Below are positions 1-7,082 of a DNA stretch of 64,000 nucleotides, piece after piece (the stretch's first letter is position 1; each line of letters begins with the position of its first letter). The notes beneath the pieces are model-generated. The model had not been told where the DNA came from. It ran no database searches and saw nothing but the letters and a program-made list of their open reading frames with translations. A program made the position numbers and the translations under genes. The DNA is from an uncultured Acidobacteriota bacterium (GTDB taxonomy: Bacteria; Acidobacteriota; CAIWXX01): contig CAIWXX010000028.1 of assembly GCA_903916735.1 (NCBI GenBank), forward strand, positions 1-64,000, read 5' to 3'.

Positions 1-302
1 AAAAGAGCCATGTTGAGGTATCACCCAAGCTCGCAGAATCAAACCTGGGGCATCCTGGCGCGTCAAATCCGATGGTTGAGGGGATGATAGGGGATTGACT
101 GCCGCTTTGTCATCTGGATCAGAAAGAATCCTCTCGGCGTCCTCGATGTCTTGCAGATCCTCTTCATCTTGACGTTCTTTCTTGCTGCTGTTGTGATGTG
201 CCTGATAGGTTTTACCATCTCGACCGATTCTTCGTTCTGTTGCAATATTATTGCAACTGATTGGTCGATGGGTCTCAACCATCATGTCACTAACTCCACA
301 CA
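1..302 (-). pseudogene. Third ParB/HTH copy, out of frame, running off the window
   Basis: Read from about 300 down to 1 the frame stays open to the window edge. It encodes CGVSDMMVETHRP, then RRIGRDGKTYQAHH, then SSKKERQDEEDLQDIEDAE. It matches residue by residue the HTH-end and charged linker of the copy at 282-896. It has no start codon of its own: the copy lies 317 bases after its equivalent in the upstream gene, which is not a multiple of three, so the upstream frame stops at 282 instead of continuing here. It is best read as a fragment made by tandem duplication. It could be translated if a frameshift occurred, but nothing shows that. The far end after DPDDK differs from the neighbouring copy and continues outside the window. 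Confidence 0.6.
239..257. repeat. Perfect palindrome in copy 3 (9-base arms)
   Basis: Plus strand GTTGCAATA-T-TATTGCAAC. It sits between the HTH codons and the RRIGRDG codons of the third copy. It is one of three private palindromes, one per copy. Confidence 0.85.
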
Positions 303-896
303 TAGGTTGTCGTTTGGTTTAATTTGTCTCAGGCTAACTATGGCCGACTTGGCATGATGCATGCCTTCGCTTGGATTACTGTAGTCTATTTCTGTACTGT
401 CCTCCTGGGTAAAGGGGATTATTTTATCGTCTGGGTCGGCAAGAATCCGCTCGGCGTCTTCGATGTCCTGCCGATCCTCTTCGTCTTGACGTTCTTTCTT
501 GCTGCCGTTATGACGTACCCGATACTCCCTACCATCCAAACCGATTCTTTTTTCGACTCCAAGATTATTGGAGTCAACCGGTCTATGGGTCGAGACCATC
601 ATGTCACTAACTCCGCATAATTCTGCAATCGCCCCGTTGGACAATTTGGGAAATTCTGCAATGGCGATCTGCACGCATCTTTGCTTATCCGGATTCGAAC
701 GCTTCAGACCAACCTTGGCATTAGCATTCAGCGCAAACTTCAGGGCCTCAATCCGTCCTCCTTCCTTCAGATCAGCCCAAATTACTTTCTTGCCGCACTG
801 ATCAGCGGCCATTAGACGATGCCACCCGTCACCTATCCAACTTTTCTCCTTACTGCCGAATAACACAATAGACGGAAATTTATCACCGTTTCTCAT
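282..896 (-). CDS. ParB-like domain/HTH protein (middle copy of tandem set)
   Basis: 204 residues. The N-terminus shows a ParB-type core (GDGWHRLMAADQCGKK, then EGGRIEALKFALNANA). The HTH stretch KLSNGAIAELCGVSDMMVSTHRP follows from about residue 83. A conserved KRIGLDGREY segment comes next, then a very charged, probably coiled linker (KKERQDEEDRQDIEDAE). The ATG overlaps the stop of the upstream copy as ATGA, suggesting coupled translation, but the protein begins in the middle of a normal ParB domain, so it is probably N-terminally truncated. The C-terminus (NDNLCVELVT) runs into the third copy in the wrong frame. The ParB-HTH family partitions DNA or regulates plasmid or phage genes by binding palindromes. 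Function here is inference. Confidence 0.6.
   Translation of the reverse strand: MRNGDKFPSIVLFGSKEKSWIGDGWHRLMAADQCGKKVIWADLKEGGRIEALKFALNANAKVGLKRSNPDKQRCVQIAIAEFPKLSNGAIAELCGVSDMMVSTHRPVDSNNLGVEKRIGLDGREYRVRHNGSKKERQDEEDRQDIEDAERILADPDDKIIPFTQEDSTEIDYSNPSEGMHHAKSAIVSLRQIKPNDNLCVELVT
555..575. repeat. Perfect palindrome in copy 2 (8-base arms)
   Basis: Plus strand GACTCCAA, a 5-base centre GATTA, then TTGGAGTC, at the equivalent site of the second copy. Aligned to the palindrome at 239-257, the core CAA-n-ATTATTG is shared. The outer bases changed on both sides in ways that keep pairing. Confidence 0.85.
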
Positions 897-1255
897 TGCA
901 TTTGTGATTCCTCTTCCTCTGCATACTGAGAGGATTCTTTGTCATCAACCCCATTATTTTCTTCGGGTTCCGTCCTTTCATGCTTGCTGCTGTTGCGATG
1001 TGCCGGACGTTCCTTGCCATCGGCACCCATACGTTTTGAACTTGAAGAATCTTCAAGTTCGGGGGGGCGCATACCATTTATCATCGTATGACTGACACCG
1101 CACATTTTGGCTATTGCATTACTAGACAGCTTAGGGAATTCACTCAAGGCGATTTCAACACAGCGTCGCTTGTCCTCATTGGTTCGCCGACGACCTAATG
1201 TAGCATTTGCACTCAAAGCAAACTTAAGGGCCTCAATCCGCATGGTATCAGGCAT
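893..1255 (-). CDS. Truncated ParB/HTH-family protein (first copy)
   Basis: 120 residues. It begins MPDTMRIEALKFALSANA, exactly where the ParB domain of the next copy has EGGRIEALKFALNANA, so the whole preceding part of the ParB domain is missing. An in-frame TAA sits directly before the ATG. The HTH region reads AIAKMCGVSHTMINGMRPP, followed by SKRMGADGKERPAHR and an acidic tail. Its stop overlaps the start of the following copy by four bases (ATGA). It may be a functional short HTH protein or a decaying fragment; the coding frame is intact, which argues against very old decay. Confidence 0.55.
   Translation of the reverse strand: MPDTMRIEALKFALSANATLGRRRTNEDKRRCVEIALSEFPKLSSNAIAKMCGVSHTMINGMRPPELEDSSSSKRMGADGKERPAHRNSSKHERTEPEENNGVDDKESSQYAEEEESQMQ
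1038..1060. repeat. Perfect palindrome in copy 1 (11-base arms)
   Basis: Plus strand GAACTTGAAGA-A-TCTTCAAGTTC, again just after the HTH codons (it encodes ELEDSSSS on the minus strand). Its sequence is unrelated to the palindromes of the other two copies. Confidence 0.85.
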
Positions 1256-4220: not shown

Positions 4221-4775
4221 ATGATCAAACCGGATTCCTGGATCAAACGCAAAGCCGTTGAAGAACGGATGATCGAGCCTTTCGAAGAGAAGCTGGTTCG
4301 TGGCGGGGTGATCAGCTATGGCCTTTCTTCGTATGGATATGATCTGAGACTCGCCGGCGAATATCATATTCTCACTGCCAGCAACACCAGCAGTCGTGTC
4401 ACGGATCCCAAAGATATGGACGGCACGGCTTATGCAAAATATCGAGGGGAAAGCTTCCTGGTACCGGCCAATTCATATATTCTGTCGCGCAGCCTCGAGT
4501 ATTTTCGAATTCCGAAGAACGTCATGGCCATTGTTCAGGGGAAATCCACTTACGCCCGATGTGGACTGTTCGTCAATGTCACGCCACTCGAGGCCGGCTG
4601 GGAAGGCTACATCACGATGTCCATCGCGAATCTCTCTCAGATGCCTGTGAAGCTCTATGCCGGTGAAGGAATCGCGCAGGTCCTCTTTTTTGAATCCGAT
4701 CCCTGCGAAACAAGCTACGCGGACAGAGCTGGGAAATATCAGGGGCAAAAAGACATCACACTCCCCAAAGTATAG
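4221..4775 (+). CDS. dcd: dCTP deaminase
   Basis: 184 residues, the usual length. It deaminates dCTP to dUTP for thymidylate synthesis; the enzyme is a cytosolic trimer. Diagnostic stretches are GKSTYARCGLFVNVTPLEAG in the middle (nucleotide contacts and the catalytic glutamate of PLEAGWEG) and YADRAGKYQGQ near the end, the mobile C-terminal nucleotide lid. The ATG follows GGTAAGGGCCT closely. It stands alone, divergent from the amidase. It could be a bifunctional dCTP deaminase/dUTPase, but the sequence resembles the plain Dcd type. Confidence 0.95.
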   Translation: MIKPDSWIKRKAVEERMIEPFEEKLVRGGVISYGLSSYGYDLRLAGEYHILTASNTSSRVTDPKDMDGTAYAKYRGESFLVPANSYILSRSLEYFRIPKNVMAIVQGKSTYARCGLFVNVTPLEAGWEGYITMSIANLSQMPVKLYAGEGIAQVLFFESDPCETSYADRAGKYQGQKDITLPKV

Positions 4776-5150
4776 CCTCTGAAGCCGCCCCATCAATTGA
4801 GCTCACTTTTTGAGTTACCGTTGCACGCATTCGAGTGTGAGGCATGGACATTTATGGAAGCAATACAAAATCATTTTTTCTGCCATGATCAAGCCCCAGG
4901 ATGATTGAACGCCTCTTTCCAGCTTCGCATTAATTTATCGCGGCGAATTGATGGTTGACAATCATGAATTGGGAGGTGATATGTTATGTATACGATTGAT
5001 CACTTGCCAGAAGGTGGAAAACGGCTCACTGCCAGACAGCACAAAACCGAATGGAGGCTTGAAGACCATGGGTTTGTACTTTGCCGGTTCGTCCGGCCCT
5101 TGTTTCAGGGCCCGGATGGCGCGTCGTCAGTTTTTCCGTCGGAGTGGACA
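4776..5150. other. Non-coding gap after dcd
   Basis: About 375 bases. No supported gene, RNA or terminator. An open frame covers much of it in continuity with the following gene, but it has no domain signal and the family start lies at 5151. Confidence 0.4.
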
Positions 5151-5567
5151 ATGATCGTCACAAACTCGCTGCAGATCCAATCGAAAGGTCACAATCATTT
5201 CATCGATATCACAAAGGATGTCGACGGAGCCCTCAAGAAATCAAGTCTGAAAAACGGTTCGATGACCCTCTTTGTGCCCGGCTCCACTGCTGGATTGACG
5301 ACGATCGAATACGAAGACGGAGTTTTGAAAGATCTTGATGAACTTCTTGAAAAGCTCGTCCCGAGCTCCCGTCCTTATCACCATGATGCCACATGGGGCG
5401 ACGGAAATGGGTTCTCACACCTACGAGCCGCTCTTATTGGGCCCTCACTCGCGATACCCTTTTCCGATGGACGGCTGATGCTGGGGCAGTGGCAGCAGAT
5501 CATCTTCATGGATTTCGATAACCGGCCCAGGCATCGTGAAATCGTTTGTCAAATTTCGGGGGAGTGA
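5151..5567 (+). CDS. YjbQ/UPF0047 family protein (FVPGSTAG subtype)
   Basis: 138 residues from the ATG at 5151, chosen because the family begins near the KGHNHFIDIT segment and GGAG lies eight bases upstream; the frame is open further upstream without family similarity. Visible motifs are LFVPGSTAGLTTIEYEDG, WGDGNGFSHLRAALIGPS, and DGRLMLGQWQQIIFMDFD with a terminal GE. Members of this family have been reported to have thiamine-phosphate-synthase side activity, and their true role is uncertain. This copy belongs to the subtype with PGSTAGLTTIEYE, unlike the second copy at 18154. It lies five bases ahead of a small winged-helix gene and is probably co-transcribed with it. Confidence 0.85.
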   Translation: MIVTNSLQIQSKGHNHFIDITKDVDGALKKSSLKNGSMTLFVPGSTAGLTTIEYEDGVLKDLDELLEKLVPSSRPYHHDATWGDGNGFSHLRAALIGPSLAIPFSDGRLMLGQWQQIIFMDFDNRPRHREIVCQISGE

Positions 5568-5572
5568 CGGCC

Positions 5573-5842
5573 ATGTTTCATGATGTGTCCACGAACAAAG
5601 ACAAATTGTTGAAGATCCTTTATGAGTGGAGACGCGAGACGATGGCCGAGTCGGTCTGCGTTCATGATCTATCTGCCAAGGTCGGCCTCGAAGATGCCGA
5701 TATCCAATCGGTGTTACAGGATCTTCTGGAAATCGGATACGTGAAGACCGGTACGCCGGTCGATCCCTCGCAGATTTCGACATGGGTCAAGATTACCAAA
5801 GCCGGAAGAGATTACCTTCGTGAGAAGGCCATTGTCGATTGA
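5573..5842 (+). CDS. Small winged-helix protein
   Basis: 89 residues starting MFHDVSTNKDKLLKILYEW. The pattern of helix, helix, recognition helix (VHDLSAKVGLEDADIQSVLQDLLEIGYV) and wing (WVKITKAGRDYLREK) is that of a stand-alone winged helix-turn-helix, similar to the MarR/PadR core. The start at 5573 is chosen because GGGGGAG overlaps the end of the preceding gene. Tight spacing suggests it is expressed with the YjbQ-like protein and may regulate that unit. Target unknown. Confidence 0.75.
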   Translation: MFHDVSTNKDKLLKILYEWRRETMAESVCVHDLSAKVGLEDADIQSVLQDLLEIGYVKTGTPVDPSQISTWVKITKAGRDYLREKAIVD

Positions 5843-6245
5843 GGTCGGCGAGTCGGGCAAAGGTTGCCGAGAAGATCTTTCCGATGACCGACCATGGCCT
5901 CATGGCGCCCTAACGCGGCTTAGCCTCAACCAAACAAGGTGGATTTGACAACCATCGCACCCGAACCTCTCAGGAATGCAGGAAGAGATGAAAGCAGGAG
6001 CGGATTTATATTTCGACCAGCAGGGGCTTCATAAGCCATTCCTGCATTCCTTTCTTCCTGGCTTCCTGAGAGGAATTCATGATTATGCACTGTCACAGGT
6101 CTTGCCATTTTGTGCACAGAGTTGACTGGTCAGATACTAAGAACTGGGATTGGCAATCAGGAGCTCCTCGGCCTCAATTTCTACTCCCCAGAAAACATGG
6201 AATAGGAATGGCGCGCGCAGGGTATGATTACTGGGAGGGTCAAGC
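5843..6245. other. Gap carrying MITE-like repeat copy 1
   Basis: About 400 bases without a gene. The middle (5961-6078) is the repeat described separately; the rest shows nothing recognisable. The region just before 6246 contains GGGAGGGT, the ribosome-binding site of the next gene. Confidence 0.5.
5961..6078 (-). repeat. MITE-like interspersed repeat, copy 1
   Basis: About 118 bases with inverted ends: CCTCTCAGGAATGCAGGAAG at 5966-5985 against CTTCCTGAGAGG at 6062-6073. The reverse complement aligns along its whole length with 37627-37746. The ends are best conserved and the middle differs most. No coding capacity. Confidence 0.75.
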
Positions 6246-7082
6246 GTGGATTGTCACGAATTCGAACGCATGGCGGGTGCCTATCATGATGGGAATTCGG
6301 CACCGGACGAACGAAGGAGAATTGAGGAACATCGGCAAAGTTGTAGTCGGTGTGCGAGTTTTCTCAACGAGTTAGGTTCCCTCGGTAATGCCCTCCTGAA
6401 CTGGCGGATGTCCGATCGAGTGGACTGGACTGCCTTCGAGCGGCGCGTCATGACTGCTGTGGAAAAGCCACGAACCAGCCGGTGGTGGGCCTTCCCGGTT
6501 ATCAAGTGGTCGGCGCTCACCGCTGCTGCCTCTCTGGCTGCCGTAACGACCGGATTTCTGCTCTGGCACAACCAGATCCCGCAGACTCCCAGTGAACCAA
6601 AGATACTCACCGCCAAGGGACCCTCACGTACATCCTCCGAATTCCGGAAGCTCTCATCGGAAGAAGATTCTGATGCCAGAACCCTTTACTATCGCGGGCT
6701 CGAATTAATGAAAAATGGCCGGCCTGATCGCGCCGGACAGCTTTTTTCCGACATCAGGCAGCGATACCCGGAAAGCGGTTTGGCTGCGGCATCGGATTAT
6801 TACCAGGCCTACATCACGGATAGTGCAATTGACCCGGCCCAGCTTGACGAGGGCACTCTTCGATTACGGCTCGCCGTTTGGGAATCAATTCGTCTGGATG
6901 CGCTCGGCAGCGAGGAAGTTGAGCAGGCGCTCTTTTATCGGGCCAAGATTGGATTCCATCTTGCCGAAAGGAGCCGTTCTCCTCTGGAAAAGCAGCATGC
7001 CCTGGAACATGCACTTGCTTATCAATCCCGTTTTCCAGGACGTTCCCCTGAAGTTGAAACCTGGCTGGCCCGGCTCCGATAG
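6246..7082 (+). CDS. Membrane anti-sigma factor with zinc finger and TPR-like tail
   Basis: 278 residues, GTG start preceded by GGGAGGGT. The N-terminus is a ZAS/zf-HC2 domain: C3, then H29-x3-C33-x2-C36 (HRQSCSRC). A transmembrane helix follows at about 86-107 (SALTAAASLAAVTTGFLLW). The periplasmic part, from about 145, has a TPR-like repeat (YRGLELMKNGRPDRAGQLFSDI). Such proteins hold an ECF sigma factor at the membrane until a signal releases it; the obvious partner is the sigma gene 175 bases downstream. The order anti-sigma then sigma is less common than the reverse. The TPR tail could sense a periplasmic partner. Confidence 0.85.
   Translation: MDCHEFERMAGAYHDGNSAPDERRRIEEHRQSCSRCASFLNELGSLGNALLNWRMSDRVDWTAFERRVMTAVEKPRTSRWWAFPVIKWSALTAAASLAAVTTGFLLWHNQIPQTPSEPKILTAKGPSRTSSEFRKLSSEEDSDARTLYYRGLELMKNGRPDRAGQLFSDIRQRYPESGLAAASDYYQAYITDSAIDPAQLDEGTLRLRLAVWESIRLDALGSEEVEQALFYRAKIGFHLAERSRSPLEKQHALEHALAYQSRFPGRSPEVETWLARLR

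Follow-up and report, generated by a model that had tools for sequence, protein, structure and literature searches.

Palindromes embedded in ParB-like genes of mobile elements covary with the recognition helix and the hairpin encoded around them

The window (i.e., the whole stretch of 64,000 nucleotides analysed here, from an uncultured Acidobacteriota bacterium) begins at the end of contig C28 with three open reading frames on the minus strand, each of which contains a palindrome directly after its helix-turn-helix (HTH) codons (Table 1). Among the 13 perfect dyads present in the window (arms of at least 8 bp, loop of at most 5 nt), these three are found at one codon position in three homologous frames. 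An earlier note, made from the sequence alone, had described three tandem ParB/HTH copies, each with a perfect palindrome. All three palindromes are present where it placed them, and the frames are homologous, but the copies are unequal in length and domain content, with A missing the first half of its HTH, and perfection holds only for A and C, since palindrome B has one mismatch at bp 2 and is hence imperfect toward its centre. ORF B showed weak PHROG matches to ParB-like partition protein. The note's further observation that A and B keep a common core while flanking bases changed in pairs was borne out: both share the inner core CAATA as well as the helix SDMMV, and three pairs, counted from the centre, are altered on both sides (bp 6, G-C to C-G; bp 8, T-A to C-G; bp 9, G-C to A-T), all of them in the outer arm. 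Palindrome A has C at bp 5 from the centre, matching the code for helix SDMMV given below, and palindrome C occurs nowhere else in the genome, even with as many as 3 mismatches allowed.

Table 1 Coordinates of the features discussed; positions without a prefix are those of the window.
Feature	Position	Strand	Remark
Palindrome A, GTTGCAATA-T-TATTGCAAC	239-257		9-bp arms, 1-nt centre
Palindrome B, GACTCCAA-GATTA-TTGGAGTC	555-575		8-bp arms; centre as in A
Palindrome C, GAACTTGAAGA-A-TCTTCAAGTTC	1038-1060		11-bp arms
Recognition helix codons, copy A (CGVSDMMVETHR)	265-300	-	translation
Recognition helix codons, copy B (CGVSDMMVSTHR)	582-617	-	translation
Recognition helix codons, copy C (CGVSHTMINGMR)	1067-1102	-	translation
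Second module, copy A (RRIGRDGKTYQAHHN)	190-234	-	beta-hairpin in the homologue's model
Second module, copy B (KRIGLDGREYRVRHN)	507-551	-	beta-hairpin in the homologue's model
Second module, copy C (KRMGADGKERPAHR)	995-1036	-	beta-hairpin in the homologue's model
ORF A	1-303	-	truncated, start inside HTH; 107 aa once joined to contig C89
ORF B	282-896	-	204 aa; second half of ParB-N domain, HTH, hairpin
ORF C	893-1255	-	120 aa; HTH and hairpin, no ParB-N domain
Copy D	C101 (L005):1-447	-	palindrome CACTGGCAAC-C-GTTGCCGGTG, 9/10 pairs
Element extent, C28 (window)	1-2348
Element extent, C101 (L005)	C101:1-1376
Element extent, C89 (L027)	C89:1-4965
Site CATACTGCGCAC(A/T)GTGCGCAGTATG	L397:2377-2401; L400:2337-2361; L401:2297-2321		inside portal-like ORF

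A fourth copy, D, with its palindrome at the same place, was found in the same genome on contig C101. It is chimeric, beginning as in C and ending as in A, and its helix reads CGVSHTFIEQI. The first 141 bases are identical between C101 and C28, and this 141-base repeat also stands at the end of contig C89, where genes for a D5_N primase and an ERCC4 nuclease are found. The two element copies adjoin tRNA-Leu genes (CAA and TAA), and it therefore looks as though one integrative element is present twice in the genome, beside two different tRNA-Leu genes. Contig C89 contains a shared part of the element, with small HTH ORFs too. The site-bearing genes of the window are shortened paralogues within this integrated element, and copy A is probably a relic.

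The predicted structure of one homologue (L129, pLDDT 89) shows a ParB-N-type domain followed by the HTH helices (residues 121-128 and 132-143), a low-confidence linker with its minimum at 148-150, which is the region encoded by the palindrome, and a beta-hairpin (155-159 and 165-169) that corresponds to the second module. Foldseek matched this model to ParB, Noc, KorB and sulfiredoxin, and profile searches matched ParB chains. Judged by the model, the homologue family has the ParB/sulfiredoxin N-terminal fold, all or half of which is missing from the window copies. Because their ParB-N domain is incomplete, a ParB-type clamp is doubtful in these copies. At the place equivalent to Box II, the ParB motif of CTP binding and hydrolysis, the family has the invariant motifs DGFHR and xN..HG.R, which differ from GERRxRA. 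In one small ORF (L135, G121:C57), a PPKRIGADGKxR segment is repeated around the HTH, which suggests segmental duplication inside such genes.

Homologues were gathered by protein similarity alone from viral contigs, genomes and plasmids, so that the set comprises phages, prophages and plasmids; initial scans of viral and genome contigs with single proteins returned no relatives, and these were found with alignments of distant homologues. In a set of 223 non-redundant genes (<85% DNA identity to each other), 125 had a dyad with at least 10 of 13 pairs centred 10-30 nt downstream of the final arginine codon of the HTH; 24 control zones elsewhere in these genes had only 0-7 each. With at least 12 of 13 pairs required, the counts were 45 in the post-HTH zone and 0-1 per control zone. 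Widening the zone to 10-110 nt gave dyads of at least 9 of 11 pairs in 158 genes, against 5-18 in control zones. Among these homologues, the dyad is confined to the post-HTH position. About 30% of homologues have no clear dyad (at least 9/11) within 110 nt; the missing signal is partly explained by longer linkers (the HHDTV group) and by an upstream site, as in L108, where a family-type site precedes the gene, in intergenic DNA, instead. Across 221 loci (1.29 Mb), 96 typed dyads were located in the linker and 7 elsewhere, including the upstream site of L108. Most loci have one site. Two genes have tandem copies inside the gene (three in L380, two in L289) at 66-nt, iteron-like intervals, and beyond these no extra copy of any gene's own site was found within ~3 kb. 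One private palindrome per tandem copy, as initially proposed for this locus, is not particular to tandem copies: private palindromes are a trait of the family, which is large and consists mostly of single-copy genes. These counts are not independent events, as the homologues share kinship, for which the representative sets and swap pairs used below correct only partly.

The dyads are not a by-product of the encoded protein. Synonymous resampling left 5.3 dyads and shuffling of codon order left 2.1, compared with 128 observed, which upholds the earlier claim that the palindrome itself is selected. The outer motif is translated in differing frames among genes, and it is therefore the DNA, not the peptide, that is under conservation. 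At bp 2-5 all four bases are in use (1.75-1.87 bits per position), and 90-99% of the pairs are complementary, as opposed to ~30% after permutation. A selected inverted repeat might also act as an RNA hairpin in the mRNA, either for translational control or as an RNA-binding signal, and the transcripts can indeed fold (z between -3.2 and -5.4 for four of the five examined). However, pairing continues right up to the centre of one base or none (bp 1, 81%; bp 2, 89%), where an RNA loop could not pair, and the mismatches lying no more than 10 bp from the centre comprise 5 G.T and 21 A.C, the opposite of what G.U tolerance in the sense RNA would leave. Rfam matched only tRNA, and the bases track residues of the DNA-recognition helix, as set out below. 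An RNA hairpin, raised as the alternative in the earlier note, is hence very unlikely.

The covariation between helix and palindrome was computed over 126 distinct combinations of helix and half-site. The residue after CGVS predicts bp 5 (Asp, C in 16/16; Glu, C in 18/19; His, G in 36/42; Asn, T in 14/15; Gln, A in 9/10), with a mutual information of 1.45 bits against a null of 0.22, and the next helix residue goes with bp 4 (Lys, G in 22/22; Arg, G in 10/10; Asp, C in 9/10; Pro, T or A in 18/18). This signal persisted among representatives whose N-domains were <70% and <60% identical. The comparison of recognition-helix changes with palindrome changes, which had been suggested as a check, thus yielded a residue-by-base correspondence. 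All four copies of the present genome fit it, with Asp and C in A and B and His and G in C and D, and copy D, which was left out of the set used to derive the code, carries exactly the SHTFV site. A nearly identical site recurs at distance: L007, a distant full-length homologue from the same phylum, has a 28-bp perfect palindrome (TTATCACTGGCAACGTTGCCAGTGATAA) directly after the helix CGVSHTFVEKS, and this palindrome is almost that of copy D. Four relatives from the window's clade were fetched later; L404, L405 and L406 fit the His-to-G and Asp-to-C entries, and L407 has no dyad at the post-HTH place.

The outer half-site follows a different part of the protein. The second module was read only from residues beyond the palindrome, with classes defined by regular expressions. 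Modules of the TKHG type occur with the outer arm CACT in 44 cases and ATCT in 7, those of the RNG type with ATCT in 30 and CACT in none, and those of the H(P/H)(K/R)TG type (HxTG) with TACT in 10 of 10. This association was strong in N-domain representatives at the 70% cut (p = 4e-10) and weaker at 60% (Fisher p = 0.011, 16 genes). Mantel correlations were 0.42 for helix and inner half-site and 0.47 for second module and outer half-site, compared with 0.14 for helix and outer and 0.01 for second module and inner, so the two dependencies separate cleanly, as a double dissociation. Genes with the helix residues H-K-T-V and the inner sequence GGGGAA have the arms CATACT, TATCT or TCACT, tracking which of the three modules is present. 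In the window, likewise, the statement that the HTH parts differ between the copies needs amending: the helices of A and B are nearly the same and their inner core is identical, and their paired changes lie in the outer arm, which follows the second module.

Gene pairs that are otherwise 80-100% identical differ mainly from the helix to the hairpin (L036/L033, L350/L371, L350/L365 and L382/L379). L033 and L036, from Chlorohelix plasmids, encode a ParB-HTH fused to a DNA methyltransferase, and their genes are nearly identical between the two plasmids with the helix-palindrome cassettes swapped. Downstream of the ParB-HTH gene of L350 there is a helicase ORF (4570-6540) with what seems to be an intein-like insertion at Walker A, absent in L371. 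Matched changes in both arms could also arise without selection if template switching perfected quasi-palindromes at a mutational hotspot, as a single event can alter both arms. Such an artefact leaves unexplained the residue-to-base code, the dependence of the outer arm on a separate module of the protein and the likeness of sites between genes that are very distant but have similar helices, and we consider it scarcely credible.

In all likelihood, the palindrome is a double-stranded DNA site cognate to the ParB-like HTH protein whose codons surround it. Its position, its conservation beyond coding needs, its covariation with helix residues and hairpin class, and its cassette-like replacement between near-identical genes are demonstrated here; binding, dimer geometry and function are only inferred, as we have no binding data. 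The idea that the site is embedded in the gene and coevolves with the protein reading it passed every test that was run (position, recoding, four-base pairing and helix covariation), with binding itself inferred. In our proposed mechanism, a protein dimer would bind the palindrome symmetrically, and in each half-site the recognition helix would contact the inner 5-6 bp and the beta-hairpin, encoded just downstream, the outer 4-5 bp. With the site placed in the codons of a putatively disordered linker between two DNA-reading modules, helix, site and hairpin would therefore travel together as one cassette, and specificity could shift without losing the match.

What such a site does for the element is less certain. 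We give about even chances to a role as a nucleation mark on the element's own DNA, parS- or ori-like, within a phage replication/recombination module. Its neighbours in the prophages examined are genes for PDDEXK, AAA_24, DUF669 and RusA proteins on one side and a DEAD helicase on the other, and in L007 the gene lies beside an ERF recombinase. Within ~3 kb, a ParA-like gene was absent from 126 of 128 loci (a KGGxGKT-type ORF was seen in the other two). One rival is an intragenic operator, in which binding within the gene body would let the protein repress the operon that encodes it, without any role in partition or replication. A single site in most loci, the intergenic upstream position in L108 and the fold match to ParB relatives such as KorB, which act as repressors, would all be in line with it; repression, however, needs no strict placement between the codons of helix and hairpin, two genes have two or three tandem copies, and additional sites lie 6-26 kb away in one genome. 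Autorepression alone is thus possible but rather unlikely, and self-marking for replication or partition is slightly favoured over it.

Another candidate is a replication origin or initiator site inside the initiator gene. The ori of phage lambda is part of gene O (PMC5043065, PMC4488673), and O dimers bind near-perfect inverted repeats there (PMC5043065). The gene neighbourhood described above and the iteron-like copies of L380 and L289 would suit an origin. Of the features of the lambda O system, the in-gene dyad is met (its binding being inferred), but iterons and an AT-rich region are not: most loci have only one site, and profiles around it show no AT-rich neighbour and merely a weak change in GC skew. 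Nor is the C-terminal helicase-recruiting domain met, as a crude regular expression for the O/DnaT-like W..F..W motif found it in 2 of 213 C-terminal tails. The O/DnaT-like C-terminus seen in L129 is, by the same count, not general. We regard such an origin or initiator site as unlikely. With no ParA nearby and no AT-rich unwinding region, therefore, neither the parS nor the origin reading of the nucleation mark is proven.

One genome contains many such loci. From CP087563.1 (Planctomycetes bacterium syqfu), 11 loci were fetched, mostly with differing sites. At L398, L399, L402 and L403, family-type palindromes of several specificities occur in clusters 6-26 kb from ParB-HTH genes, apparently outside long ORFs, and one of them matches the in-gene site of another locus exactly. 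In three prophages, the site inside a portal-like ORF (Table 1) lies ~15 kb from the ParB-HTH gene and is identical to the in-gene site of the viral locus L063.

We found no account in the literature of family-wide embedded, helix-matched sites, although our coverage was incomplete and subscription papers were mostly outside it. On balance, we lean towards an undescribed large class of mobile-element ParB-like proteins that are self-addressed: the gene stores the exact site of its product between the codons of two DNA-reading modules, specificity evolves by cassette exchange, many related elements can share a cell and stay free of cross-talk, and a readable recognition code could be drawn from the hundreds of protein-site pairs in sequence databases. 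An in-gene site would solve target-finding for phage DNA-binding proteins, as the sequence alone yields the protein-site pair. Hundreds of natural pairs would make HTH recognition rules, modular two-part recognition and protein-site coevolution directly testable, and the matching may explain the separateness of many related prophages, at least 11 loci coming from the one planctomycete genome.

Several known systems share part of this arrangement. In Bacillus subtilis, a parS site is located inside spo0J, the ParB gene; as here, the gene of a ParB-fold protein contains a palindrome, placed in the linker that follows the DNA-binding domain. Spo0J, however, uses one universal parS with many genomic copies, whereas the present family has a gene-specific, helix-matched site and no ParA nearby. 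StrR-type regulators of antibiotic pathways combine ParB-N and HTH and bind GTTCRACTG-N11-CRGTYGAAC. Their domain order is similar, and the annotation of some phage homologues reads streptomycin biosynthesis regulator, but L044, the sole Streptomyces homologue read, has no strong dyad at the post-HTH place. In lambdoid phages, type-specific pairing is known, and lambda O is likewise a phage protein with dyad-symmetric binding sites in its own coding sequence (binding being inferred for the present family); its fold is unrelated and it relies on four iterons and an AT-rich region, in contrast to the usually single site and residue-to-base code seen here. A 2025 survey of the ParB-CTPase fold takes in members from phages and plasmids, among them fusions to methyltransferases and other domains, without mention of gene-embedded palindromes (PMC12704722). 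In the ParB/Noc specificity switch, one base of the palindrome is determined by residue 173 of the recognition helix, and the Gln form prefers adenine (PMC7383237), as it does here; by our own motif alignment, the key helix position after CGVS appears to be the counterpart of this residue. Few positions distinguish the ParB site from the Noc site, and that work does not describe either as gene-embedded, whereas in the present family all inner positions vary.
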